Assembly: GCA_000827265.1 (NCBI GenBank)
Contig: KN834818.1
Location: 27,287-91,286 of the forward strand
Direction: 5' to 3'
From: Collybiopsis luxurians FD-317 M1
Lineage: Eukaryota; Basidiomycota; Agaricomycetes; Agaricales; Omphalotaceae
DNA length: 64,000 nt
Below are positions 10,864-63,290 of this stretch, piece after piece. Under the pieces are notes generated by a model, which saw only the letters and a program-made list of their open reading frames with translations, was not told the DNA's origin and ran no database searches. The translations under genes were made by a program, and so were the position numbers. How positions within the stretch are numbered: position 1 is the stretch's first letter; the number at the start of each line of letters is the position of its first letter.

Positions 10864-13630
10864 ATGAAAATGATATCAAGTTCGCCTCATATACATTTGG
10901 CCTTGGTGGTTATGGCATCTTGTCCATTGGTGTCATCAAGTACTACTCACACCGTGTCACTTTTATTTGAGAACGACGCGAATTGGGAGGTAAGTATGTC
11001 ATATCTTGGAGCATTTTTTGATTTAGCAGCATCTAGTAGCAATTCGCTAATAGCTCCAGCGCTCTGCTTGTCTATGACGCAGCATCATCTAGCGATGCTT
11101 TGACAATCTGTAAAGAATTTAACGAGACTCTCCTTGCTCCAGGAGATCTGGCAGAGTATGTGCCAATTTAAAGCCTACGCGATTTCTTTTATTCACCCCC
11201 TCCATCCAGCGTCTCCAACAAACTCTCGTATCTTCAACATCTAGGTCAATTTGAAAATGAATCGCAGTTCTGGATCAGAGCGTTCAATTCTACGGAGGCC
11301 ACATCTGTTGCGCCTTTCTCCTCTTCCGTGTCGTTCCCAAACTCGGACACATGCAAGAAGCTTCCATTTTTGTGCAGTAATTCTGCTCCTTTCACTTCTC
11401 AGGTAGATACAAACTTTACGAACTCACCCACGACAACCGTGGCTTCCAATGGCACCATCTTTACTGGGTGCGTTCTAAATTTTGCTATCCTTTGCGAGTC
11501 TGACAATAAGTGGACACATGCAGTACACGGGATCATATGACATTTCGATTCATGGGTATTCCATATGCCTCTCCACCATTGGGCTCTTTACGATTCCAGT
11601 ACCCGGAAAGGTGGGAAGGTAGTCACGTCGACGCGACCGCATGCAAGTTATCTCGTTATCCCTCATTTCAATCGACTATTTTCTGAATCTTTTTGTTCAG
11701 TCCAACCCGCGTGTTTGCAGTTTGGCTCTTTCGCTAACAATGATATGGGTCTTAATCCATGGGGAATAAGTGAAGACTGGTACGCTACGCTTCGCACTTT
11801 GAGATCGCCAAGTTGATTTCTGGCTTAGTTTGTATCTGAACGTATATACGACATACATTCCTTCTTCTACTTCTGACTCTCCCGAACCACTCAGACCTGT
11901 TTGTCGCTTTGCAATAAGCTATTATACTATAGCTCTAATACCCCTATAGGTATTCTTTTGGATCCACGGCGGAGGAAATACAGGTGGCACAGGAGACGAT
12001 GAAACATTCGACGGTGCACCTCTCGCCACAAGAGGCGACGTGGTCATCGTCACCATAAACCATCGGCTCAACATCTTTGGCTTCCTCGGTCTCAACGACT
12101 CTGCTATACCGGGAAACTATGCCCTGGCCGACAAAATTGCCGCATTGCAATGGGTACAAGAACACATTTCCGATTTCGGAGGTGACCCTGAGAGGGTGAC
12201 AATCATTGGCCAATCTGCTGGAGGATTTTCGGTAGTGGATTTGTTAAAGAGTCCGAAAGCAGCTGGATTATTCCATAGGGCGATTTCGGAATCTGGAGCC
12301 GCAGGGTCATCATTTTTCACACCTGAAGAGGCGAGTGAAGCGTATCGTTAAGTTGTCCCAGTATATTTGGTTGTGATTTACTGACCAGTCTGCATTGGAT
12401 ACGTACATAGTCCCCGTTCTGGTTCCGTTCTGCAACAATACTGGAGTGAAGCTCTTACAGTGCCTCCAAGCCCTACCAGCAGAGACGCTGCTGAACATTA
12501 CGAATGTAGCCACAACCTGGAAAACGATTATCGACGGCGTTTACGCTATAGACTCTGCCGTGCATCAAATGAGTTTGGGCCCGAGTGCAGTTAACAGCGT
12601 ACCTTTCTTATTAGGATTCATGCCCGAGGAAGGACAATCGTACGGACGTCTTCTCCTCCCTGATTGCGCTTATGTTGATTTTCACCGTACTGCCAGGTTG
12701 CTTGGAACCACTATTGCGCCGAACGACACGAATTTCGCGCAAGATCTGGCGACTGCCATAGGCTCAACGCAGGCTGAAGTTGTTTTAGAGTCGGGATTGT
12801 GGACAATATCTGAAGATTTCACTGTCTGTAAGTCCGACTCACTTCCGCTCGCTCTTGAAAGTTTTGTTCCGCGCTCAAATTTACGGCCCAGACAATGCAA
12901 CCATCAACGCTTACTCCGATTTCTTGCTTACTTGTCCTGCGGAGAGTATGATCTCGTCTGCATCGGGATCTAATGCTTTTCCAGCTTTGTGAGTTACATG
13001 TTTCGTGATCTCTCTCCAGGAATTCTGACAATGGAAATTAACTGATTGTCTTCAAAGGTATGTATACACTATGCAACACGCCTATGGCCTCAATCACCTT
13101 GATCCATATGGTCTCTGCACATTCCCGACAGGACATATTCAGCCCTACTATCGTTGCCATGCTGGCGATGTGTATGAGGTAAGTGCGCTTGAAAGATCTA
13201 CCGAATTCAAAAAGAAAAAAAAACTATTTGTCTCTCTTGATAAATTTATCTTTTTCTTTGGTCACTGAAGCCATTTCACGGGTCCTTCACCAGTAATCTC
13301 AACGGTTTATCCTTACCGCAGGTCTTTGGTACATACTACCTATTCGACCTACCCATTCGTATACCTCAAGACGTCTTTTACACCGCTCTCGTACAGGACC
13401 TATGGACAGCCTTCGCACGTACGGGCAATCCAAACCCGGATCAAGATGATCTTGCAGCCAGAGGTCCAGCGTATGAGAGCACTCTCCGGATTTTGCGGGA
13501 GACCAAATGGGTCTGGGAGGAGTATGATAATGTGACGATGAGGAGGGCTTCGTTGGATTATCCAGACTTAGGTATTTTGGAGGGACTTCCGGATGTTGCG
13601 AATGGTCGGTGTGCAGTGTTGACGCAGTAG
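10864..13630 (+). CDS. Secreted type-B carboxylesterase/lipase, copy 1
   Basis: Predicted to hydrolyse carboxylic esters outside the cell; substrate unknown. Twelve exons (10864-10989, 11040-11155, 11210-11467, 11524-11642, 11701-11779, 11829-11898, 11950-12346, 12411-12639, 12697-12827, 12892-12988, 13058-13178, 13322-13630) give 683 residues in one frame. It has an N-terminal hydrophobic signal peptide, the oxyanion motif HGGGN, nucleophile Ser345 in GQSAGG, acid Glu462 in MPEEGQ and His575 in RCHAGD, the usual alpha/beta-hydrolase triad of this family. Intron 4 starts with GC (GCAAGT), the same in copies 2 and 3. It is the first of three direct tandem copies. I see no disabling change, so it is probably functional. 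The start is the first ATG after the TATA box, with the signal peptide directly behind. Confidence 0.9.
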
Positions 13631-16039: not shown

Positions 16040-18174
16040 TTACTTTTTGCAAGAGTAACGAGAGGAGCCGGTTAATGGCCCTGCTCCGCTCACACGCCAG
16101 CTCCACCAGTCTATTTCCGAAAAGCAACCTTCCAATCCCAGTCTCTCCATTGAGTTTTCGAACACAGCTAGAGATAATTGAATCGGAATTGTAACTGTGA
16201 CCTGTTCCTTCTCAAGAGAAACCTCCTTAAATGAAATCTTGGACAGGACCAGAGAGAATCCACGTGTGAATAAATCCCTAAAATGTGGTAGTGTGCAGTA
16301 CCATCCATAATTATCCTTGTAAAAGAAGGGGGGAAAATTTAGTGAAGCGCAACAGAGATTCCTGATGACTAGAAGATACTCACGCAAAACTTGACCCAAA
16401 TTTTGAACAATTTCCTGAGGAAAATAGATAATGTCGACTCGAGATTGTGGTATCTCCAATCAAAGCAACTTATATGGAAAAAAATCAAAGAATGAATATC
16501 AGACGATTCAAGTCTGCATAGAAGTTCGGCACTGCCGTTTGCGTAAATGCCATGGTCAATCCAGTATCTTGTAGAATACCAATGGAGAGTCGGTATTTGA
16601 AAGCTGCAGGGATTTTGAGCAATGATGTTCAAGCAACACTGAGCAAGGTAATCATGTCCAATGGCTTTGTCAATGAAATATTCCATGGATCTTCTGCGAT
16701 CAAGCAGGAAATCCCAAAATGATACATGGCAGAATTCGAGGTTAGATTCAACAGGTGTTGGACCTTGAAAAAGGGAATGAAGTCCAGATAGAGCAGCACA
16801 AAGAGCGCCCTTCGAATTCATTTGTGTAGAAAGAAGAGTTATCAGTTCGGGGCCTTTCCTTGAAGGAGAATCCGCAGTTCTATAGGCAACAATTGCTCCT
16901 AAGATTTGAACAATTACGGTGGAATTTTTTTGCATCGAGAGTATCTGGCGATAAAGAGCATCGAGCTCAACAAATGGTGACTCTGACCCTTTATCAGGCT
17001 GTGCAAGATTAAGGACCATATTGAGGCGATCTGCCGGAACTGCAGAGTCATCATCGATAAACTTCAAAATAGTCGTTGGGTATATGAACTGTCCTGAAGC
17101 ATGCTGAACCAAGCTCTCGATCTGATTATGCGTCGGCCAAGGACGAGGGACATGTTCCATGTTACAAGAATGCCGTTGAAGAATGTCTTGGAACCTGTCC
17201 TGCAGAAATACTCGTATATCGCAGGATGCTTGGTAAGTATTGTCTAGACACATGCGATGACAGATTCTGATGAAGCTTGGGCCGTTGAAGACCTCTTTAA
17301 TACGAGGCTCTGGCCGACTGGCTATCAGAACGCGAAGTGGAAGGAGGCCGTTTTGCATTGCGTTCCCAAGGATAGACAGGATCCGTTGTTGATTAGGAGG
17401 GTCGGAGCACTCATCCAGACCATCTATAATCAAGATTTGAGCACGAGTTGAGTCTGAGGACAGAGCGATATCAGCGTTGTGGTTGATTCTTGACCGCTTG
17501 GGAGCGTAACTGAGGCGGGGAGAGGGACTGCGTCTCTTCCCATATTCCGTGCTCGAATTGACAACTTCCTCTTCATGGGCTTCGTGGATCTTCCTAAACG
17601 GTTGAGCGATCAGTTTTTCGAACTGATTCTCAATAGAGGAAGTAAGAATGCTAGGATCGTCTATAACTGCCGCATCGATAATAGGACGAAGCTCTGGTAT
17701 TGAAATAGCCAGCTGCAAAGCGATGGTAGTGAAAAGTCGCTGAGGATTGTTTCTGGAAGGGTCCGTCCGCCAAAAAAAAAAGCTCGCAGCTAGCACACCT
17801 CTCCGTGCGCAAGTTTCAGCTAGCGTCTGGGCGATAGCAGACTTTCCAGCCCCTGCGGGACCGTAGAGCCAGCAAGCAGTACAATCATCCTCCGCATGAT
17901 AACCGTCGATTGTTCTGATGCCAATTATACTAGAATTATCTGAATGTATCCTCCTAGGTATTGGATCTACCTGCCCTGGATGGGGATGAACCCAACATTC
18001 CAAGTCCCTCAAGACCGCCTCCCTTGTGCCCGGATGGCAAAGCGGAGGGGGCATTCGAGCTTCAGCATTAAACTGAGCTGACTTAGATGAGTAGGCGAAC
18101 AATTGTAGAAGACCTGTTGTACCAGCGTAAGAAAACCAAAAGTCAGATTGGATTGATGAACTCGCCCTCTTCAT
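16040..18174 (-). CDS. NACHT-domain STAND NTPase (fungal NLR-like)
   Basis: Two exons (18174-16384 and 16315-16040, 68-bp GT-AG intron) encode 688 residues. A short leader with CHPGTRE precedes the NTPase core. The P-loop is GPAGAGKS (residues 105-112) and Walker B is ILIIDGLDEC (247-256), followed by the sensor-like LIASRPEP. Family members bind ATP and act as signalling switches in heterokaryon incompatibility and defence. The C-terminal half has the FCHVSFWDFLLD element common in basidiomycete copies, then a unique tail. I see no WD40, ankyrin or TPR repeats, so this is a short-form member. The first in-frame ATG after a stop was used; an upstream exon carrying an effector domain cannot be excluded. 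It looks intact. Confidence 0.85.
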
Positions 18175-18415
18175 GCGCAAACACAGTATTCGATATGTTC
18201 ATATCACGTCCAATGTTATTGAACGTTCCATCGTGAATGGTAAAGTAACGAGATTGACTGAACATAGTTTCAACGCAAAGTCGAAATTCAGCGTCGACCT
18301 AGTGATGCAAGTCTGAGATAGAGATTATACTGCGACCGAATTTACCAAGTGTCACGTATTAGGCGATTGACACTAATTCAGGGGGTCCTGTTATGCGTTA
18401 TGGTTTTTACATGAA

Positions 18416-20907: not shown

Positions 20908-23753
20908 ATGAAAATGATGTCAAATCTTTTTCGAGTTCATTTGGCCTTTGTGATTCTGGCATCTTGGACATTGGTGCTCTCTAGTACCACTCACACAGTG
21001 TCACTTTTATTTGAAAACGACGCGAATTGGGAGGTAAGTAGGTCGCAGCGTTTCCGCTTCCTGGAGCATTCTCCGATGTAGCGTCATTCGGTAGCAATTC
21101 AGTAACCGCTCCAGCGCCCTGCTCATTTACGATGCAACGTCATTCAGTGATGCTGAGGCAATTTGTGAAGAATTTAACGAGACCCTCCTTGCTCCGGGAG
21201 ATCTAGTAGAGTATGTGCCAATGTAATGCCTACGCGAGTTCTTCTACTAACCTCCGGCATCCAGCATCTCAAACAAGCTCTTGTATCTGAAGCGTTTAAG
21301 TCAATTCCAGAATGAATCGCAATTCTGGATCGCTGGTCCCAACTTTACGGAGGCCATAGCTGTTGCGCCTTTTTCCTCTTCCTCATTATCCCCAGAATCG
21401 GACGCATCCATAAAACTTCCGTTTCTGTGCAGCAATTCTGCGCCTTTCACTTCTCAGGTCGATACAAACTTTACGACCTCGCCTACCACAACTGTGACTT
21501 CCAATGGCACCACCTTCACAGGGTTCGTCCCGGGTTTTGCTAACCTCTGCGAGTCTGACGATGAGTGGGCACATGCAGTACACGGGATCATATGACGTTT
21601 CGATTCATGGGTGTTCCATATGCTTCTCCGCCTTTGGGTTCTTTACGATTCCAGTACCCGGAAAGGTGGGATGGTAGTCACGTTGACGCGACCGCATGCA
21701 AGTTATCTCGTTATCCTTCACTTCGATCGACGCTTTTCTGAATCTTGATATCTAGTTCAACCCGCTTGTTTGCAGTTTGGGTTTTTCACTAATAACGATC
21801 TGGGACTTAATCCTTGGGGGATTAGTGAAGACTGGTACGCTATACTTATATTTTGTTCTTGGAACAGCGTCAAGCTGATTCCTGTGAACAAACATCTCAG
21901 CTTGTATCTGAACGTATATACAACATACATTCCTTCTTCTACTTCTAACTCACCCGAACCACTCAGACCAGTTTGTCCCTCTCCACAGGTCCTTATTGTT
22001 CAGCTCTAATATTCCCGCAGGTGTTATTCTGGATCCACGGCGGAGGAAATACAAGCGGCACAGGAGACGATGAAACCTTCGACGGTGGACCTCTCGCCAC
22101 AAGAGGCGACGTAGTCGTCGTCACCATAAACCACCGATTAAACATCTTCGGATTCCTCGGTCTCAACGACTCTGCTATACCAGGAAACTACGGTATGGCC
22201 GACAAAATTGCCGCATTGCAATGGGTACAAGATCACATTGCCGATTTCGGGGGTGATCCACAGAGGGTAACAATTTTTGGACAGTCTGCTGGAGGGTCCT
22301 CAGTCGTTGATTTGCTAAAAAGTCCGAAAGCAGCTGGGCTCTTTCATGGAGCCATTTCGGAATCGGGAGGTGCAGGTTCGTTTGTGACGCCTGAACAGGC
22401 TAGTGCAAAATATCGTGAGTTTTTGAGTCACTATAGTAGATTGCTTTGGCTGAACTTTGGTTCTCTCTGAAATGTAGTCCCTGCGCTAGAACCATTCTGC
22501 AACAGCAGTGGGATAGAACTTTTACAATGCTTGCAAGCCCTCCCAGCCCAGACATTGCTGGATATCACGAATGTTGCCTCGAGTTGGACGACAATCATCG
22601 ATGGTGTATACGCTGTGGACTCTGCTGTACACCAAATGAGCCTGGGTCCGAACACAGTCAACAGCGTGCCTTTCTTGTTAGGATTTATGCCCGAAGAAGG
22701 ACAATCGTACGAATGTCTTCTTCTCCTCCTGTTCAACACTCATGTTAACTTTCGCCATACTACCAGGTTGCTCGAAACCGCCATTGCACCGACTGACAAA
22801 AATTTTACAAAAGATCTGGTGACTGCCATAGGCTCAGCGAAGGCTAAGGCTGTTTTAGGGTCGGGGTTGTGGACGATATCTGAAGATTTTACTGTCTGTA
22901 AGTCCAACCCACTTCTGCTTACTCTTGAACACCCGAAATCCCAAACTGAATGTGGACAATTCTACGATCTAGACAATGCAACTATTAACGCTTACACCGA
23001 CTCACATCTTACTTGTCCCGCAGAAACTATGATCTCTTCTGCATCGGGATCTAATGCTTTTCCCGCTTTGTGAGTCACTCGTTATACCTCCCTCATCATC
23101 TCATTTTGAGGAATTCTGATATTCTCTATACACTCTGATACTAAAAATTAATTGGTTACCGGTCATTGTGTTCATAGGTATGTATACACTATGCAACATG
23201 CCTATGGCCTTAGTTACTTTGATCCGTACGGCCTCTGCACATTCCCGACAGGACAAATTCAGCCCTACTATCGTTGCCATTCTGGCGATTTGTATCAAGT
23301 AAGTGACATTGAAAGATCTACTTACCAAATTCAAGAACAAAGGATCTTTTCCTTGTTACGTTTCATAAATTTATTTCTTTTTTTGGTTACTTTCGATTAT
23401 TCACCGGTAATCTAAGTAAACGGCTTTCTAATCCCTGACTATAGGTCTTCGGTACATACTACCTATTCGACCAACCTATTCGCATCCCTCAAGACGTCTT
23501 TTACACTGCTCTCGTACAAGATCTATGGACAGCCTTCGCACGTACGGGCAATCCGAACCCTGACCAAGTCGATCTCGCAGCTAGAGGTCCAGCATATGAG
23601 AGCACCCTTCAAATTTTGCGGCAGACCCAATGGGTCTGGGAAGAGTACGATAATGTGACAATGAGAAGGGCTTCGTTGGATTATCCGGACTTGAGTATTT
23701 TGGAGGGACTTCCGGATGCTGCGAATGGTCGGTGTGCGGTGTTGACGCAATAG
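20908..23753 (+). CDS. Secreted type-B carboxylesterase/lipase, copy 2
   Basis: Same 12-exon plan as copy 1: 20908-21033, 21095-21210, 21265-21522, 21579-21697, 21756-21834, 21901-21970, 22021-22414, 22478-22706, 22767-22897, 22973-23069, 23178-23298, 23445-23753; 682 residues. Signal peptide, HGGGN oxyanion loop, nucleophile motif GQSAGG, acid motif MPEEGQ and His in RCHSGD are all kept. Intron 4 again begins GCAAGT. Exon 7 is one codon shorter than in copy 1. All exons other than 7 have the same length as in copy 1. No inactivating lesion seen. It is the middle copy of the tandem array, about 7 kb after copy 1 and 1 kb before copy 3. Confidence 0.9.
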
Positions 23754-41589: not shown

Positions 41590-43976
41590 TCATTCTGAAC
41601 CACTGATATCACGCTGCTTCACATATAAAGGCATCTGGGTTCCTAGTTCTGGTCGTCCTCGAATCATTGGCATCATAAGGATGCTAGGAACTCTCTGCAT
41701 GTCCAAGCCATGAGGGGGTAGCAAAAACTCGAATGATTCAAGAAACCCAAATAACATAACTTGAAGCTCTAAGACTCTGAACAACCAAGCCAACTTCTTG
41801 AGAACAACTGGACTCTGAAAACGGATGTAGCAACACTCACGCAAATTGCCAACTAAGAAAGATTCGTCATCACAGGTCAGCGTTATGTTTTCCAGCTACA
41901 GAGACGCCAACATTTACCCGATGCAAGACCTTAAACCACCGCCTAAAATCTATTGAGATTCTCGATCATAGCCTTAAAAGACCGGACTCACTAAAAGTTG
42001 CCCTGTTGATCTTTGCTGAATAATAAAGTCGAAGAGGAAGATGAAGTTAGTACATACAGATCGCCATAGACCCCGACATTAACATCTTTTCTGTTATCGA
42101 AAAACCGGACGGGATTCCATGAATTAGCATCGTCGCCCCATACTTGGGTCAGGCTGAAAATAGATAGCATGTCAGCAACGTATGAAGGATTCAAGGGAAC
42201 TTCGAACCGATTATAGACGCTCAACGGCATTAAAATGCGTTGTCCTTTGGAAACTGGTATATGGGATAGTGACTTCCCCGATTTGCTTTTCACCGAGATT
42301 GAAAGAGGAATAATATCGTTGAAGGTTGCTTCTCGGATGATGGTGGGAAGGATTGGATGTAATCGAAGAGTTTCCTATCAAAAGTATGTCGTGTGCAGAA
42401 TTCCAGATAGATCGAAGGGAATTAACCTTGATAACTGCGTTGAAATACGGCATGGACTCGTAGTTTTCGGGGGAAGGTGAGGTGTCAAATCCGGTTTGGG
42501 AGCGGAGGCCTTTAATTTCTTCATATACCCTCGCTTGGCTTTCGGGATGACAGGCGAGTTCGTAAAGCATAAATACAAAGGTTGAAGCACTTGTGTGATT
42601 TCCGGCAAGAATTATCGTGCTATTCTAGGGTCAGTAACTTATGATTAATCAATGTACAAGAACATTCCCCTCACGTAATTTGAGAAACAATCTCTTCTTC
42701 GCTGAGTCTTCTCCTAGGATCTTCATCAGCTGCAGATCGAACTGAAACATATTTTAGCTCAAGCCAAATCTAGCACTGAGTCGGCGTACCCAGAGTACTA
42801 AGAATATCTCTATCATCGCTATAAACAGTCTCCTTTTGCTTCAGAATATTCATGGCGGCATCCTGCGCCGCGGTTAGAAATGCCGAAAGTCTGCGATCCT
42901 CTTTAGTTCTAAACATCTTGAAGCCAAAGCTCTGGGGAAAACGCCGTCGTATTGCACTGTAGAGTATTGTTATTGCCGATGGCGAGGTCGAATCAAGGCT
43001 TAACAGAGACCATAAGTATAATCGTTGCTAAAATAGGCAGGACAGCGGGCCACTTACAACATATCCCTCAATGTCAAGTAAAGCTCGTTATATTCGGCCG
43101 AGCCATCAAGAACACCGAAGTTGAAGTTGAATGCACCTTGAAAAGTCTATGAATGCTTGAAAATTTTGGATACTATGGAACACCTACTCCGACCAATGAC
43201 ATCTAGTGTGATTTTTGGGATCCATTCTGCCATGTTCAGATTGATGGTATCTACACCATCCAGCCGTTTAATCCATTTCTTCACAAGCTAGAGAAACATC
43301 AATTACTCCGATAATAGAGGGGAACAAAAGAAGAGATATCACCTGGGACGTAGCCTCTTGGAAGAGAGGAACAAAATACTTGATCTGCTGTGTCGAGAAA
43401 GCTGGATTGAGTGCTCTTCGCTGGCGTTGGTGTGCCTCATCTGTGAATAATTAGAAGCCTATCGCAAGATAATCACAATTGGGCACCGCTTACTAGTCGC
43501 AAACAATATACCCCTTCCGAATACTCGCTCCGCAATAATGCGAATGTCAGTAGGTTTAGGATAGTTCTGAGATTGCATGATATGCTGCAAGCCCAAAGGA
43601 TCCGCAATCATGAGAATGTCCTCCTGTCAAAAGAAGTATAGTCATTCGGGAGAAATTAGGAGTGAGAGATGAAGGGAGTGTAGGGCAACGGTTCGAATCG
43701 TACGTACTGAGAAGCATCCAAAAATTCGAAGCGTGGGTCCATATTCCTTAACCCAAGAAAATTCTAAATTACCAACATCACTTTGCCGATTCAGTTCGTA
43801 TTCGTGACCTATATGTAGTTAATTTCACGAGGACCCTTAGCAAGGAGGAACGAACCGAGTAAATAAGAAGTAGGGACAGGTCCCCGAAGGAAGAACAACG
43901 ATGATCGTCTTCTGTGAACAACAATCCCGGCTGACAGTAATGCCAGCACAGTTGTGCACAGAATTGTCAGGGACAT
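41590..43976 (-). CDS. Cytochrome P450 monooxygenase, 15 exons
   Basis: Exons 43976-43856, 43808-43708, 43623-43494, 43440-43343, 43287-43194, 43136-43058, 42956-42790, 42741-42675, 42619-42427, 42374-42208, 42153-42058, 42002-41992, 41942-41918, 41852-41841 and 41776-41590 join in frame to 515 residues, a normal P450 length. It begins with a membrane anchor (MSLTILCTTVLALLSAGIVV). Other landmarks are the I-helix AGNHTSAS, ETLRLHP (ExxR), WNPVRF, and the haem loop TFSGGLRSCIG with ligand Cys448. Micro-exons of 11, 25 and 12 bp surround the haem loop. Predicted to oxidise a lipophilic substrate at the ER; substrate unknown. It resembles CYP64-clan basidiomycete enzymes, but I do not assign a CYP number. 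It looks intact. Confidence 0.88.
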
Positions 43977-44525: not shown

Positions 44526-47460
44526 CTACACTAAACCCACACCCCCTGAAGCAGCAGTAATAACAGCACACCTCCCATTCCCCTCGTCCGGAAGGCCGCG
44601 AACAACCTCAAGCCCCGGATAATCAAGCGATGCAATCTTCATCAATCCACTATCATACCTAGGCCATACCCAGTTTGTCTCTTCTAATATCTGTAAGGTA
44701 CTCTTATACGCCGGCCCTCTAGCCGCCAGATCCTCCCTGTTCAAGTTGGGATCTCCAGTATGCGCAAAAGTAGACCACAAATCTTGCACAAGATTCGTAT
44801 AAAATATGTCAGCTGGTATGCGCACGGGCTCTGAGAAGATGTGATACGTTCCAAAGACCTACAAAAATGGTGTGGCGTGTTTTTCAGATTTACAGATGAA
44901 TATGGATATAGCAAAGCACCACACGATTACGACGGAAATGAAAAATGGGATAGATCTAGAACGTACCTCGTAAAGATCTCCCGAATGGCACCGATAGTAA
45001 GGCTGAGGCATTCCCACAGGAAATGTGCATAGCTCGAAGGGATCGAAAAACGATAGACCATACGCATGTTGCATGGAGTAGACGTACCTAACAAAAAGAC
45101 TGTTTAATGATGTTCCAAGCCAAGCCAACAAAATAAAACGTAGGGAAGCGGTGAAAGTAGGGGTTGAGTGATCTTACATCGCAGGGAAAGCACTAGATTT
45201 AGAAGCAGCAGCTATCATGTTCTCCGCGGGACAAGTGAGGGACCAATCCGTATAGGCACTGATGGTTGCGTTATCTGATACCAATTATGATGAGAAACAC
45301 GCTTAAAAAAAACACAAACAAACGAAAAAACCAAAAAGAAGAGCACGCCAGAAAGAGACGAAACGAGAACATACAAACATTAACATCTTCGGATACAGTC
45401 CAGAGTCCAGACTTCAACACGCTTTGCGCAAGAGGAGCGCCTAACGCGAGGATTAAAGACTGGTTGAAATTGGTGGCATTGGGTGAGATAGTCGTTCCGA
45501 GCAATCTAGTCCAGTAATCAACAGGTCAAGATCAAAAAAGGGAAGGGACAAAAAACATACGACTGTCCTTCCTCGGGCATGAAACCGAGCATAAAGGGCA
45601 CGCTGTTGACCGCCTTTGGACCCTTGGCCATTTGATTTACCGCGGAATCCAAAGCGTACACACCATCGATTACAGTGGTCCAGGCTCCGACAAAATTAGT
45701 GATGTTTAGTAAAACCTCAGCTGGTATTGCTTGCAGGCACGTTAAAAGCTCTGCGCCGGTTTCATTACATAGCGGAGAGAGAAAAGGCTCTAAACATGTG
45801 AGTAATTAGTTGTTGCACAGCGTGGTTTCGTTGCGAGAATTAAAAAAACCACACTCACCAACCAACTCAGAGACCTGTTCGTACGTCATAAATGTTCCTG
45901 ACCCTCCAGAGTGTGAAATCGCCGAATGAAAAAGTCCAGCAGCCTTTGGGCTCTTCAACAAATCCACGATCGACCACCCCCCAGCCGACTGCCCAAAAAT
46001 CGTCACCCTTTCCGGATCCCCACCAAACTGTGCCACATGCCCCTTCACCCACTCCAATGCAGCAATCTTGTCCGCCATAGCGTAGTTTCCTGGAACAGCT
46101 GAATCGTTGAATCCGAGGAAACCAAAGATATTCAGTCGGTAGTTGATCGTGACGAGGACAACGTCCCCTCTGGATACGAGTGGACCTCCGTCAAAGGTCT
46201 CATCAGATCCCATGCCGTTGATGTTAGCTCCTCCGTGGATCCAGAGCATCACCTAGAGATTTCCCCTACGGATGTTAGAGCCAAGCCAGAAAAAAAACCA
46301 TAAGGGGATATAGTACGAACGGGTCTCAGTGGTGCAGGAGATGCCGATAAGGAAGAGGGTATGTATGACGTGTACACGTTAAGATACAGGCTGGATTTAA
46401 TATGTTTCAGTACAGTGGAAAAGTGCACACACACACATAATATCACAACTCACCAGTCCTCACTTATTCCAGAAGGATTGAGGCCTGCGTCGTTGTTGGC
46501 AAAGGCCCCAAACTGTAGGCACGCAGGTTGGACTATAGAGTAAATACAGAGAAACGTCAATTACACGCATTTGGGGGGTTGTAATCAAGCTCACAAGCGG
46601 TCGCGTTGACAAATGAGCCTTTCCATGCTTGAGGGTACTGAAATCGCAATTTCCCAGTAGGCGGAGACGCATATGGAATACCCATAAACCTAAATACTGC
46701 GGCGCAAGCAAGGGTCAGGCGAAGTCAAGGGGAGAAAAGGTACAAGTTGATACCTAGATGATCTCGAACGCTATTTACGACCAGCAGGTTTAGGCATTAA
46801 GACTGCGGAAAGTGGAAAACGGCTATTCATACACACCCAGTAAAAACTGTGCCATCAGAAGTTACATTGATTTCCGGCAACACTGAAAACTGCGTGTCAA
46901 CTTGAGAGGTAAGCGGCGCAGAGTTGGAGCACAGGAAAGGTAGCTTTTCTGACTCGGCAGCAGCATGGTGAGAAGGCGAGGACAAGAACGGTGAGACTGA
47001 AGACCCCGAGGAAGAAGAATCCGATGCGACCCAAAATTGAGTGTTCTCGTCGAATTCCCCTAGATGCTTGAGGTACGATAGCTTGTTGATCACACTACGG
47101 AAAACGAAAGTTCAGATCATGCCATTTTCTTTAGTATCGATTGACGCCTACTCGGGTAGGCTTTCCCTTCTAAGTAGCGTTTCATCGACCTCTTCGCAAA
47201 TGCGAGAAGCATCGCTCAACGTTTCGGGATCGTAAAATAGCAATGCACTAGTGCGATTACCGAAAGCCTATTTCAATCCATTTGCACAGTCATTTCGCGA
47301 AAAAAAAAGCGAAAACGAAAGTTTCTCCAAGCCTCACCTCCCAATTTCCGTCGTTGTCAAATAAAAGAGAAACCGATCTCTCTTTCGCCTGTTCTGCACC
47401 TGACGCAAAATATAATAAACTGCTCAAAAGCAACGTGAGTAATGGGGAGAGGGCCCTCAT
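44526..47460 (-). CDS. Secreted type-B carboxylesterase/lipase, copy 4
   Basis: Thirteen exons (47460-47338, 47267-47152, 47094-46837, 46770-46754, 46696-46595, 46532-46454, 46390-46321, 46252-45859, 45789-45561, 45505-45375, 45274-45178, 45087-44967, 44858-44526) encode 689 residues. Signal peptide MRALSPLLTLLLSSLLYFAS, then HGGAN, GQSAGG, MPEEGQ and RCHSGD. It is the same family as copies 1-3 but more diverged and inverted. The exon equivalent to exon 4 of the others is split, giving a 17-bp micro-exon. The intron at the site of the GC-AG intron here begins GTGAGC. Exons otherwise align length for length with the tandem copies. It appears intact, and sits next to the repeat-peptide gene. 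Confidence 0.9.
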
Positions 47461-48453: not shown

Positions 48454-49489
48454 TCAGTTGTATGGAACGATGTTTCCAACTCCGTCAGTCTTGACCGGCT
48501 GTGTGTTTAAGTATGAGTACCGGGATGTATTGACGGTCTATAACACACCGCGTACCTGTTCAGTGGGAATCTGTCTCTTGTTGTAGGGAACAATGTTTCC
48601 AACTCCGTCAGTCTTGACCGCCTGTTTGGTATTATTAGTATCGGGATAGATAGACCTTTCATAATGAACCACGCACCTCTTCAGTGGGAATCTGTCTCTT
48701 GTTGTAGGGAACAATGTTGCCAACACCGTCAGTCTTAACCGCCTGCTCGGTCGAATATTAGTAACACAATAAATACCTATCCTACAATACCCCACGCACC
48801 TCTTCAGTGGGAATCTGTCTCTTGTTGTAGGGAACAATGTTGCCGACTCCATCAGTCTTCACTGCCTGCTCGTTTAACGATTAGTACCAGAAGAAGTAGA
48901 CATTCTATAGCACACCACATACCTCTTCAGTGGGAATCTGTCTCTTGTTATAAGGAACAATGTTGCCGACTCCGTCAGTTTTCACCGCCTGCTCGTTTAA
49001 CAATTAGTACCAGAAGAGATAGACTTTCTATAGCACACCACGTACCTCTTCAGTGGGAATCTGCCTCTTGTCATAAGGAACGATGTTCCCAACTCCATCA
49101 GTCTTAACCGCCTCCTCAGTCGGAATCTGTCGCGAATAAGCAACAATCTTGCCATCGGGTGCCTTCACAGCGTTCTGCTCAGGTATCTGACGCGAGTAAG
49201 CGACGATTTTGCCGTCAGGTGCCTTCACAGCGTTCTGTTCAGGAATCTGTCGCGAGTAAGCGACGATCTTGCCGTCAGGCGCTTTGACAGCGTTCTGCTC
49301 GGGGATCTGACGAGAGTATGCGACGATTTTGCCATCAGGCGCTTTGACAGCGTTCTGCTCGGGGATCTGGCGCGAGTAAGCGACGATTTTGCCGTCGGGG
49401 GCTTTTACGGCGTTCTGCTCGGGGATTTGACGGCGGTAGACTTCGATGGTATCGAGAGGGCCTAGACCGCTCCGACGGGAAGCTTGTAG
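48454..49489 (-). repeat. Coding repeat array of the KEP gene
   Basis: Two arrays. 60-bp units (five, about 49132-49432) lie in one exon. Units of about 123 bp (66-bp exon plus about 57-bp intron), with exon starts at 48988, 48865, 48742, 48621 and 48498, carry near-identical exons and clearly homologous introns. Confidence 0.9.
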
Positions 49490-49634
49490 CTAGACGGAAG
49501 GAAAGGGAATTTTTAATACATTTAAATCCAAGGCGCAAAAGAAAGTGCTTTACCGGCATAGGAAGAGGGGAGGCGGTAGCTGGACCAGCCAAAAAGGCAG
49601 CCAAGAGGGTCAAGACGATTGTACGAGTCAACAT
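48454..49634 (-). CDS. Secreted Kex2-processed repeat protein (KEP) candidate
   Basis: Seven exons (49634-49554, 49489-49046, 48988-48923, 48865-48800, 48742-48677, 48621-48556, 48498-48454) give 277 residues in perfect phase. Signal peptide MLTRTIVLTLLAAFLAGPATA comes first. Exon 2 has five 20-residue repeats (QIPEQNAVKAPDGKIVAYSR), then a switch to a second repeat. Exons 3-6 are each 66 bp and encode one 22-residue unit including KR; exon 7 encodes the last, ending VPYN. Five KR sites would let Kex2 release four copies of QIPTEEAVKTDGVGNIVPYN plus a terminal variant. This layout is known for fungal KEPs, including pheromone-like peptides, repellents and ribosomal cyclic-peptide precursors. 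The actual product and role are unknown. No UstYa/DUF3328 partner is seen nearby. Confidence 0.85.
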
Positions 49635-60710: not shown

Positions 60711-61859
60711 TAGGACACCATTTCTTCCTTCGATGACTACTCCATAGATCGCATTTCAGTTCCAAATAGGGCTGATTCTTTCTGCTTCCGCTACAAGGGG
60801 AAATTCATTGCCAGTGCTCATGTTCCTGAGCAGATTCATGCAAATCTCATTATGCTTGAACAATGCCTTCCTCTTTCAGACAATAGCGACTCTGACAATG
60901 CTTGATTGCTTGCTCGTCGTGCAGCACTTGAACGGTCCACAGAGTCTTTGTATCAGCTCCACAACTACAACCCTCCCGGTTCCTCACACCAGCACCACTC
61001 CTCACCACCTCCTTCTGAAATGTCTAAATCTTCTGGCTCTAGTCCATCCCCCACTCCTGCTGTTCCTGACATGGCGCAAATGATGGCGCAGATGGCTCAG
61101 ATGATTGCTGCTGCTCAGATAATCCAACAGTCTAACCTGCAAGCCATCTCGGTTCCTCCACTGCCTCTGTTTGCTTCTTCAGACACAGTACCTGCTTGTG
61201 AGTCTCTCTATTCCTCCTTTCCCAATGTCAAGGAGAAGCACATCTTGGACATCACTCGGCATGATTTCAGGCCCTATGGCCTTCACAAGCTGGATTTTTG
61301 GGTTCAATCTAAGGCCGATGCATCGGATGGCAGTCTTGAGACTCTTGACAAGAGCCAGGGGTCTGTCAAAGATTATCCCTCTCTTGACTCACTACTCATT
61401 CCACTGTCCACTTATTTCTCTATTCTTATTTCTTATGCTCTTATGGGAGGCAAACCCAAGGTTGGCTGTGCCCTGGCACTGCGCTCTCACTCCTACATTG
61501 CATCTCTGATGGAGATGGCAAAGGAGTTTCAGTGGTCTTATGTCCTGGAGTACCATGTTCAGTACATGAACATTCGCTGTCAAGAAATGAAGCAGGGTAA
61601 TTACCTCGGGTGGGGACCAATTGATGCCCAACTTCACACCTGGGTTACAGCGCATCCCAAGCCTGCTTCCTCTGCTTTCCCATCTTCATCAAAATGGTCT
61701 TCTAGGGGCAATGTTTCTAAGCAAATGTGTCATGACTGGAATGATGGCAAATGCTCAGATCCTTGCCCTGGTGGTCAAATTCATGGTTGTTGTAACTGTC
61801 ACACCAAGGATCACACATGGAAGGACTTAAAGTGTCCTGGCCCAAAGGCTCATTCATAG
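60711..61859 (+). pseudogene. DIRS-like retroelement, Gag-like first ORF (one nonsense codon)
   Basis: One frame runs from 60711 to 61859 apart from a TGA at 60903-60905. It encodes an acidic start (FDDYSIDRISVPN), a Ser/Pro/Gln-rich middle, HDFRPYGLHKLDFW, and a C-terminal Cys/His cluster: CHDWNDGKC, C, HGCCNCHTKDH, C. That cluster pattern is typical of the first ORF of DIRS-type elements. The TGA fits a CGA-to-TGA change. No clear start codon was found near 60711, so this copy is probably dead. Confidence 0.55.
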
Positions 61860-61871
61860 GTTCTTGGCAAG

Positions 61872-63290
61872 GTGAGCCGGCGTCGAGGCCGCCGTTCTTG
61901 CTACAAGTCAGCTCGCCAGAGCCACATGCCTCTTAATGACATTGTTATGGAACTATCTTTTGGTTTATTGCATTCAGACTTATTTCCTCCTCTTTCCCTT
62001 CCTCCTCTTCACCCAAACTCTGATCCTCGCTGCAATCTTCCTGTTTCCTCCTCTCCCAATCCTGTTTCTTCCACTTTGAATCATGACTCTTGGAATTTCT
62101 ACTTAAAGGACTATCCTGACTGTACATTTGTATCCTTGCTTTTACACATCATTTGCTTCAGCACTAATACAGGGTTCTGCTCTTCTCAATATTCTCAGTC
62201 TTCAAAGAATTTGAAGTCAGCTTATGAGCACTCTGGATTTGTAGATGCTGCTATCGCCGAAATGGTGCAAGCTGGTCATCATGCAGGTCTGTTTGACAGT
62301 CCTCCACTCCCTAACTTTTGTTGCTCACCTATTGGGGTTGTTTCCAAGAAGTATAATTCTTTGAAGCTTCGACTTATCAATCATCTGTCTTGGCTGCATG
62401 GTACCTCCATCAACAACAGGATAGCTGATTTGGAAGCAAGCATTTCATATGACATGTTTGAGAAAGCAGTCAGGGATCTTGTAGCTTCTGGGCATGGCTC
62501 ATTGTTAGCCAAGTTGGATTTAAAGGATGCCTTTTGTCACATTCCCCTTTGTGCTGCCGATTGGCATTTATTTGGTATCTCTTGGGGCTGCAAGTTTTAT
62601 TACTCGCTGGTTCTCACCTTTGGTTTGAAGAACACTCCGTATATTTTTAACCTCTTTGCAGAGGCATTGCACTGGATTATCCAGCGTCACATCCTGGCAA
62701 GGTTGCGCCATTATTTGGATGATTTTTTACTCATTTTCTCACCCATGTTTGACACATCTCTTGCTAATGCAGCTGTAGATTGGGTTATGGCCTTGGGTGC
62801 CAAGCTTGGGCTCAATTTCCAGCCATCTAAGACTGTTTGGCCTGCTCAAATTATTGAATTTCTTGGTTTAATCCTTGATTCCATCTGTATGGAGGCAAGG
62901 TTGCTGGAATTCAAACTCAAAATCCTACACTCGCTGCTGGATACATGGGCATCAAAAACCAGGTGTACTTTACATGAGGCACAGCAGCTGTCAGGTTTTC
63001 TTCAGTTCTGCTCTCAGGTCATCCCCCACTCCCACATTTTCCTTTGCTGTCTCTTTGATTTTGAGGCCAAGTTTTCATCTGCATTCTCTTGTCGCCACAT
63101 CCCATCTGGTGTACAATCCGATTTAGCCTGGTGTGCTCACTGGAATGGGGTGCAGATTTTGTCTCCATCCTCTTCAATTTCAGTTTGGACGGATGCTAGC
63201 AGTGTCAAGGGAATTGGTGGAGTGATTGACAATGCCTGGTTTGCTATGCGTGTCCCTCCATCAGGAAAAAGTTCCATATGCCCAGGCTAG
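61872..63290 (+). mobile_element. DIRS-like reverse transcriptase/RNase H ORF
   Basis: The frame (472 residues) contains KLRLINHLSWLHG, the first catalytic block KLDLKDAFCHIPL, LTFGLKNTPYIFN, and the YxDD motif in RHYLDDFLLIF, followed by a connection region and the start of RNase H (VWTDASSVKGIGGVID). RLINHLS plus WHLFGISW and this RNase H order resemble DIRS/tyrosine-recombinase retrotransposons more than gypsy. The frame breaks at about 63285, where a CCTGG-rich patch begins, and the downstream region, where the tyrosine recombinase should lie, is lost in the gap. Confidence 0.65.

Follow-up and report, generated by a model that had tools for sequence, protein, structure and literature searches.

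A Secreted Repeat Precursor, Probably Kex2-Processed and of the Coprinopsis cinerea KEP 497993 Type, in Collybiopsis luxurians

The window, by which we mean the whole 64-kb stretch of C. luxurians DNA that was analyzed, carries on its minus strand a complete gene (48454..49634) whose spliced model and homologues indicate a 277-residue Kex2-type repeat precursor. The ATG is at 49634 and the last base of the stop codon at 48454, which are exactly the limits assigned in the first-pass annotation. The splicing pattern is predicted from genomic DNA, and the seven exons that had been proposed were reproduced as an in-frame model, with exons of 81, 444, 66, 66, 66, 66 and 45 nt and six introns of 64, 57, 57, 57, 55 and 57 nt, all of which are GT-AG and phase 0. 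Exon 1 (49554..49634) is followed by intron 1 (49490..49553; GTAAAG...TAG), for which there were eight frame-keeping options. The option used runs from 49553 to 49490, and its product agrees with a Lentinula lateritia protein (P0001) across the junction SPLPMP/LQ. Exon 2 (49046..49489) encodes the leader, five units with SR junctions, one KR unit and the start of the next unit, and intron 2 (48989..49045), which has an in-frame TAG at codon 6, then interrupts TEE/AVK. Exon 3 (48923..48988) encodes AVKTDGVGNIVPYNKRQIPTEE, a module that recurs in exon 4 (48800..48865), exon 5 (48677..48742) and, with TEQ at its end, exon 6 (48556..48621); introns 3 (48866..48922), 4 (48743..48799) and 5 (48622..48676) lie between these exons. 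After intron 6 (48499..48555), exon 7 (48454..48498) encodes PVKTDGVGNIVPYN and the stop codon, so that the final peptide ends at the C-terminus.

The order of elements in the predicted precursor is a probable signal peptide, the leader LQASRRSGLGPLDTIEVYRR, five copies of QIPEQNAVKAPDGKIVAYSR, one copy of QIPTEEAVKTDGVGNIVPYDKR, four copies of QIPTEEAVKTDGVGNIVPYNKR and a terminal QIPTEQPVKTDGVGNIVPYN. The probable signal peptide (MLTRTIVLTLLAAFLAGPATA; 49572..49634) was assigned by hydropathy, with a peak of 2.58 over 12 residues from residue 6, and by inspection; its ATA/SP site was placed by eye, and we assume from the -3,-1 rule that the cut falls after ATA. Before the first core lies the leader segment LQASRR SGLGPLDTIEVYRR (49430..49489), which contains two RR sites, and a section of the leader, SGLGPLDTIEVY, may be released as a separate peptide. 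The five tandem units QIPEQNAVKAPDGKIVAYSR (49130..49429) are 60 nt each and have monobasic SR junctions, and the unit that follows, QIPTEEAVKTDGVGNIVPYDKR (49064..49129), is KR-bounded, ends in YD and has no intron in its coding sequence. In total there are 11 units of about 20 residues, all 11 with an N-terminal Gln, and Tandem Repeats Finder recovered both arrays (period 123, score 702; period 60, score 413).

The dibasic sites of the spliced protein comprise five KR and two RR pairs. Five KR sites, four identical 20-mers (QIPTEEAVKTDGVGNIVPYN) and one C-terminal variant (QIPTEQPVKTDGVGNIVPYN) had been noted from the sequence at first pass, and all are correct in the spliced protein, although that inventory had omitted the five SR copies and the KR-bounded copy ending in YD. 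Digestion in silico at KR and RR gave four identical fragments and one near-identical fragment, where PMC9769878, in its available text, defines a KEP by at least three similar fragments between dibasic sites. The same digestion left the SR block as one fragment of 122 residues. For the peptide of the SR set, pyro-QIPEQNAVKAPDGKIVAYS, the computed MH+ is 2011.049, and for its shorter form pyro-...VAY it is 1924.017. The corresponding values are 2127.060 for pyro-QIPTEEAVKTDGVGNIVPYN, 2013.018 for pyro-...VPY, 2152.092 for the pyro form of the C-terminal variant and 1263.647 for the leader peptide SGLGPLDTIEVY.

Comparison of the copies at the DNA level revealed a pronounced excess of silent differences. 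The five SR units are identical in protein, and 17 of their 20 codons vary, every time at the third base; the differences amount to a minimum of 21 base changes, every one of them silent, against an expected silent fraction of ~28% (P ~3e-12, assuming independent changes). Of the 18 minimum changes that separate the six KR-type units, 15 are silent (P ~2e-6, on the same assumption), and the three replacements are confined to the first and the last of these units. At the SR junction, the Ser and Arg codons differ only silently among the five copies, which argues that the monobasic form has been kept by selection. Exons 3–6 have 59–62 of their 66 bases in common, and the repeat introns are pairwise 54–72% identical, with the exception of introns 2 and 3 (91%). 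Since the copies have diverged silently and the introns have also diverged, most of the array would appear not to be freshly duplicated or homogenized. Selection is evident in these data, and we infer that the peptide sequence is what it keeps.

In each of units 7–11 one intron falls after TEE and before AVK (TEQ and PVK in the last), whereas the KR-type unit just upstream, in exon 2, codes for the same stretch without an intron. The simplest history would be that an intron was gained once within a unit and that the resulting exon and intron module of ~123 nt was then duplicated in tandem; alternatively, the intron may have been lost from the exon 2 unit. Introns 2–6 (48499-49045, minus strand) each bring an in-frame stop at codon 6, in the context V-[RC]-G-[VS]-L-stop, and have branch-like sites (TACTAAT/TACTCAT). 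On this gene model, every 66-nt exon could be skipped in frame, and a retained intron would cut the precursor short behind a QIPTEEVRGVL-like end. A literature search for Kex2 precursors with an intron per repeat found none, which is weak evidence of newness. In the available text of PMC6339444 and PMC7329392 the word “intron” is absent, and in that of PMC9769878 it occurs once, in relation to cDNA cloning; these texts describe neither one intron per repeat nor a second peptide set behind kept monobasic sites.

Protein searches identified named homologues in L. lateritia (P0001), Hymenopellis radicata (P0002), Desarmillaria tabescens (P0004 and P0021) and Termitomyces (P0019), together with one further NCBI protein (P0006) and 12 metagenome proteins. 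These make 18 hits among the matches listed and, as the searches scored only the candidates with most words in common, numbers of homologues are to be read as “at least”. No C. cinerea protein was among the matches listed. Phytophthora Pol proteins and PF10988 proteins (P0007-P0013, E 4e-4 to 0.07) were excluded before the counts as DGVGNI-like repeat matches, P0008 being the one inspected. P0006 looks like a wrong-frame gene model; it was kept in the counts, with its 21-residue match left out of the position counts. Desarmillaria tabescens has two related precursors, and the repeats of P0021 have decayed or diverged. In a search of the C. luxurians genome (64.26 Mb) with the C. luxurians units and with the homologues P0016 and P0001, convincing matches were found at this locus only, and the one other match listed (E 0.37) was elsewhere on the same 280-kb contig (C70).

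The homologues resemble the C. luxurians protein in both leader and repeats. The leader of P0001 is identical to that of C. luxurians at 35 of 47 residues, and the leader motif (here GPLDTIEVYRR) is conserved in 10 of the 18 listed hits by regular expression and, by eye, in P0001. A scan of these hits with a hand-made pattern found 59 units, from 15 of 18 proteins; the pattern misses some visible units, and P0021, P0024 and P0025, in which it found none, were kept in the denominators. Unit length was 17 residues in 46 cases, 18 in 12 and 21 in one, so that 58 of 59 were of 17 or 18 residues though the pattern permits 16–21. Downstream of the units there was a dibasic pair within four residues in 43 of 59 cases, the protein end in 12 and a single basic residue in four; the C. 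luxurians units had five dibasic, five single and one none, bringing the combined total to 70 units from 16 of 19 proteins. Homologues lacking KR sites and conserved spacing had been named in the first-pass annotation as a refutation of its reading, and the comparison came out in favor of that reading. The pattern accepts only I/L/V in the first and P/S/D in the second place, K/R/N where the conserved lysine stands, a G/N, and Y/F as the last residue; because it fixes these positions they prove nothing. At positions left free by the pattern, the 47 distinct homologue units had Glu at position 4 in 42, Ala or Pro at position 6 in all 47 and Pro as the next-to-last residue in 37. Independent of the pattern, 13 of the 18 listed hits have a C-terminal Y or F, and a mature end in PY fits with this, the last C. 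luxurians copy ending PYN rather than PY.

These features relate the gene to a known precursor, KEP 497993 of C. cinerea, for which a literature search on that name and on the string NGNIEPY returned PMC9769878 only. According to the available text of that paper, pyro-QIPAELPTKSINGNIEPY and the corresponding -PYK peptides were confirmed by mass spectrometry, mainly in young caps, and were gone in a KEP 497993 knockout; unmodified forms lacking pyroGlu could not be confirmed, and at least 13 agaricomycete homologues were reported (Vogt et al. 2022, PMC9769878). The best C. luxurians unit, the C-terminal variant, is identical to the C. cinerea 18-mer in 11 of 19 aligned columns, with an alignment score of 46, where the best of 1000 shuffles reached 41. 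Of 19 proteins tested in this way, including that of C. luxurians, 18 scored above all 1000 shuffles; the score of P0003 was reached by 12 of 1000. Termitomyces P0019 matches the C. cinerea peptide at 16 of 18 positions and aligns with the C. luxurians protein over 148 columns at 43%. On these comparisons of sequence we place the C. luxurians precursor with the KEP 497993 family rather than in a new one, and the earlier description of it as not tied to a known family is not supported.

What the two precursors share, besides probable secretion, is a QIP-x-E-x-x-x-K...G-x-I-x-PY core, Kex2 sites and an N-terminal Gln. The C. luxurians gene differs in having 11 units, five monobasic SR junctions and five unit-splitting introns, features that may nevertheless be shared. 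The L. lateritia protein P0001 (NXY57DRAFT_3272) is likewise similar in leader, cores and dibasic sites and differs in having three units by the scan, with irregular spacing; our guess is that its gene model retains intron sequence. A further guess is that the family is the same as the G-1/P-2 type (#7) of Umemura 2020, which in the available text comprises 64 KEPs from 49 genera, nearly all basidiomycete, at 1.03 per strain (PMC7329392). That type has a high Tyr content, includes Coprinopsis, Termitomyces and Armillaria, and has no member with DUF3328 within 15 genes, as far as the same text reports (PMC7329392).

The genome contains candidate processing enzymes. Two P_proprotein loci are consistent with kexins, and a fragment of a QPCT-type (M28) glutaminyl cyclase was found at 423130-423522 of contig C38 (G000:C38:423130-423522), with glutaminyl-peptide cyclotransferases as its best PDB relatives (E ~1e-32); the genome search found no PF05096 glutaminyl cyclase. 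Together with the C. cinerea peptides (PMC9769878), this fragment makes likely the conversion of the N-terminal Gln to pyroglutamate that had been suggested for the C. luxurians peptides.

Among the 40 selected ORFs of the window, the domains above cut-off were carboxylesterase (two exons), RhoGEF, P450, flavin reductase, NACHT/NPHP3_N, thaumatin and reverse transcriptase, and those below threshold include a fungal transcription factor domain (22.7 vs 23 bits). For the flavin reductase, the best hit was a C. luxurians protein (87%), with Gymnopus androsaceus at 72%, in both cases over 68% of the query; Collybiopsis and Lentinula both belong to the Omphalotaceae, and this one gene and the Lentinula KEP together make an Omphalotaceae origin probable. 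We see no sign in these 40 ORFs of a biosynthetic cluster for the peptide, though a P450 lies ~6 kb off (exon at 42214-42624, minus strand). The carboxylesterase (COesterase) exons lie a short way downstream of the peptide gene (45809-46724, minus strand). Elsewhere in the window, a 609-residue open frame with a NACHT/NPHP3_N P-loop domain lies at 16372-18198 (minus strand), and two plus-strand ORFs ~10 kb apart (12377-12970 and 22471-23070), both without a Pfam match at 0.01, are alike (...QCLQALPA.TLL.ITNVA...SVPFLLGFMPEEGQSY...) and are probable paralogues. At 60906-63287 (plus strand) lie ORFs that resemble a retroelement, of which the second has a reverse transcriptase domain, and a stretch read as N follows inside ~63.4-64.0 kb.

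Based on the gene model, the units and the homologues, the gene product is very probably a secreted repeat precursor of the KEP 497993 type, processed by Kex2, in line with the secreted Kex2-type precursor proposed at first pass. The processing steps, and the protease assigned to each cut, are proposed by analogy. The signal peptide would direct the chain to the secretory pathway, where Kex2 would cleave after YxKR and RR, a Kex1-type carboxypeptidase would trim the basic residues and a glutaminyl cyclase would convert the exposed N-terminal Gln to pyroglutamate. Each chain would then yield several linear copies of pyro-QIPTEEAVKTDGVGNIVPY(N), ~19-20-mers. The upstream SR-joined copies would either be cut more poorly at their monobasic sites or leave as one piece of 122 residues. 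In C. cinerea, the peptides persisted in every kex knockout tested, including the kex2a/c double, from which the authors inferred redundancy among three Kex2 proteins (PMC9769878, available text); Kex2 as the cutter therefore rests on that redundancy of paralogues. As Kex2 targets the SR junctions are non-standard, and the retention of their single Arg by selection implies that Kex2 or another protease would cut there.

The free peptide may serve outside the cell in sequence-specific signaling or interaction, a role that we tentatively favor over a bulk wall repeat, at somewhat less than even confidence, because the core is conserved along its length. The KEP 497993 knockout had no visible growth or fruiting phenotype under axenic conditions, and the synthetic peptides did not inhibit any of five bacterial strains, according to the text available (PMC9769878); a signal role is for these reasons still a proposal. 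That knockout, a high copy number and the lack of a known receptor would also suit a structural repeat at the cell surface (a repellent/Rep1-like fiber or a wall protein) in place of a free signal. We consider a structural role improbable: the cores, with GRAVY values of -0.41 and -0.64, are hydrophilic and contain no Cys, a single-sequence AlphaFold model of exon 2 had a mean pLDDT of 45 with no confident fold, and in the available account the relative's peptides were recovered in extracts and one from culture supernatant (PMC9769878). The repellent reading is accordingly poorly supported, as is that of an ascomycete alpha-pheromone precursor, which also has Kex2-cut tandem peptides but in which (STE13 type) XP/XA dipeptides directly follow the Kex2 site; the C. 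luxurians sites are instead followed by QI or SG. An intact repeat protein, for example a small beta-propeller, in which the basic pairs are incidental, is very unlikely. The whole protein scored above cut-off for the Pfam families PD40 and TruB_C (the latter with four passing stretches), and the low-confidence AlphaFold model has a weak strand periodicity. However, the PD40 match does not reach cut-off in any stretch taken singly, its profile spans 38 positions versus units of 20–22 residues, homologues retain the dibasic sites and Tyr/Phe end while unit number varies, and the relative's peptides were detected free (PMC9769878, available text). We rejected both Pfam matches by judgement as repeat-driven, TruB_C being called spurious because the units are 20-residue tandem repeats in a secreted protein. 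A PDB sequence search gave nothing better than E 0.013, with mostly designed or unrelated proteins.

A dikaritin-like RiPP, in which UstYa-type oxidases cyclize a Tyr core, was the other product type considered. Dikaritins (ustiloxin, phomopsin and asperipin-2a) have the same arrangement of a signal peptide and repeated cores between Kex2 sites, the core end IVPY loosely resembles the phomopsin and ustiloxin cores YVIP/YAIG in the literature available, and the P450 exon described above and the presence of UstYa matches elsewhere in the genome could be counted in favor. Dikaritins differ in their UstYa-type oxidases and cyclic products. At least eight UstYa/DUF3328 matches were found in the C. 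luxurians genome (contigs C1, C89, C64 and C29), in a search that scored six candidate places; none was on the 280-kb contig of the gene, and none was among the 40 selected ORFs of the window. The peptides of the C. cinerea relatives were detected as linear pyroGlu forms (PMC9769878, available text). Because no UstYa/DUF3328 match from the places scored lies on the contig and the relative's peptides are linear, the cyclic option raised in the first-pass annotation is very unlikely.

A reading that deserves more weight, although we still think it rather unlikely, is that one precursor supplies two separately released sets, with the KR block processed by Golgi Kex2 and the SR block secreted as a 122-residue concatemer that is cut later, in certain tissues, by a monobasic-specific (e.g., yapsin-like) protease. 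This would be consistent with SR junction codons that vary only silently over five copies and with the intact SR fragment left by cutting at KR/RR only. In C. cinerea, the peptides of one KEP differ by tissue, which the authors considered unrelated to KEX expression (PMC9769878, available text), and yapsin 2 is named as a monobasic-specific fungal protease in the title of a reference. Against this, Kex2 itself may cut at single Arg, since products of such cleavage were obtained in Pichia with KEP 497993 among the sources (PMC9769878, available text), and monobasic junctions are scarce in the homologues (4 of 59 units).

Returning to the precursor of KEP 497993 type that we favor, the family is spread across many mushrooms with a well conserved core. 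The C. luxurians member records selection within itself with unusual clarity: the DNA of its copies has diverged and the peptide has stayed identical, single-Arg junctions included. This turns into a testable question whether the two kinds of site in one precursor, monobasic and dibasic, set free different peptides at different times. Two features merit follow-up: the intron in each repeat and the second peptide set behind monobasic sites. We speculate, with little confidence, that one precursor holds two messages under two locks, the standard KR sites and the kept single Arg, such that different proteases or tissues would release different peptides. As every 66-nt exon of the KR set comes with an intron of its own, splicing could set the number of copies in that set, and as the five repeat introns each bring a stop at codon 6, intron retention could switch the KR set off.
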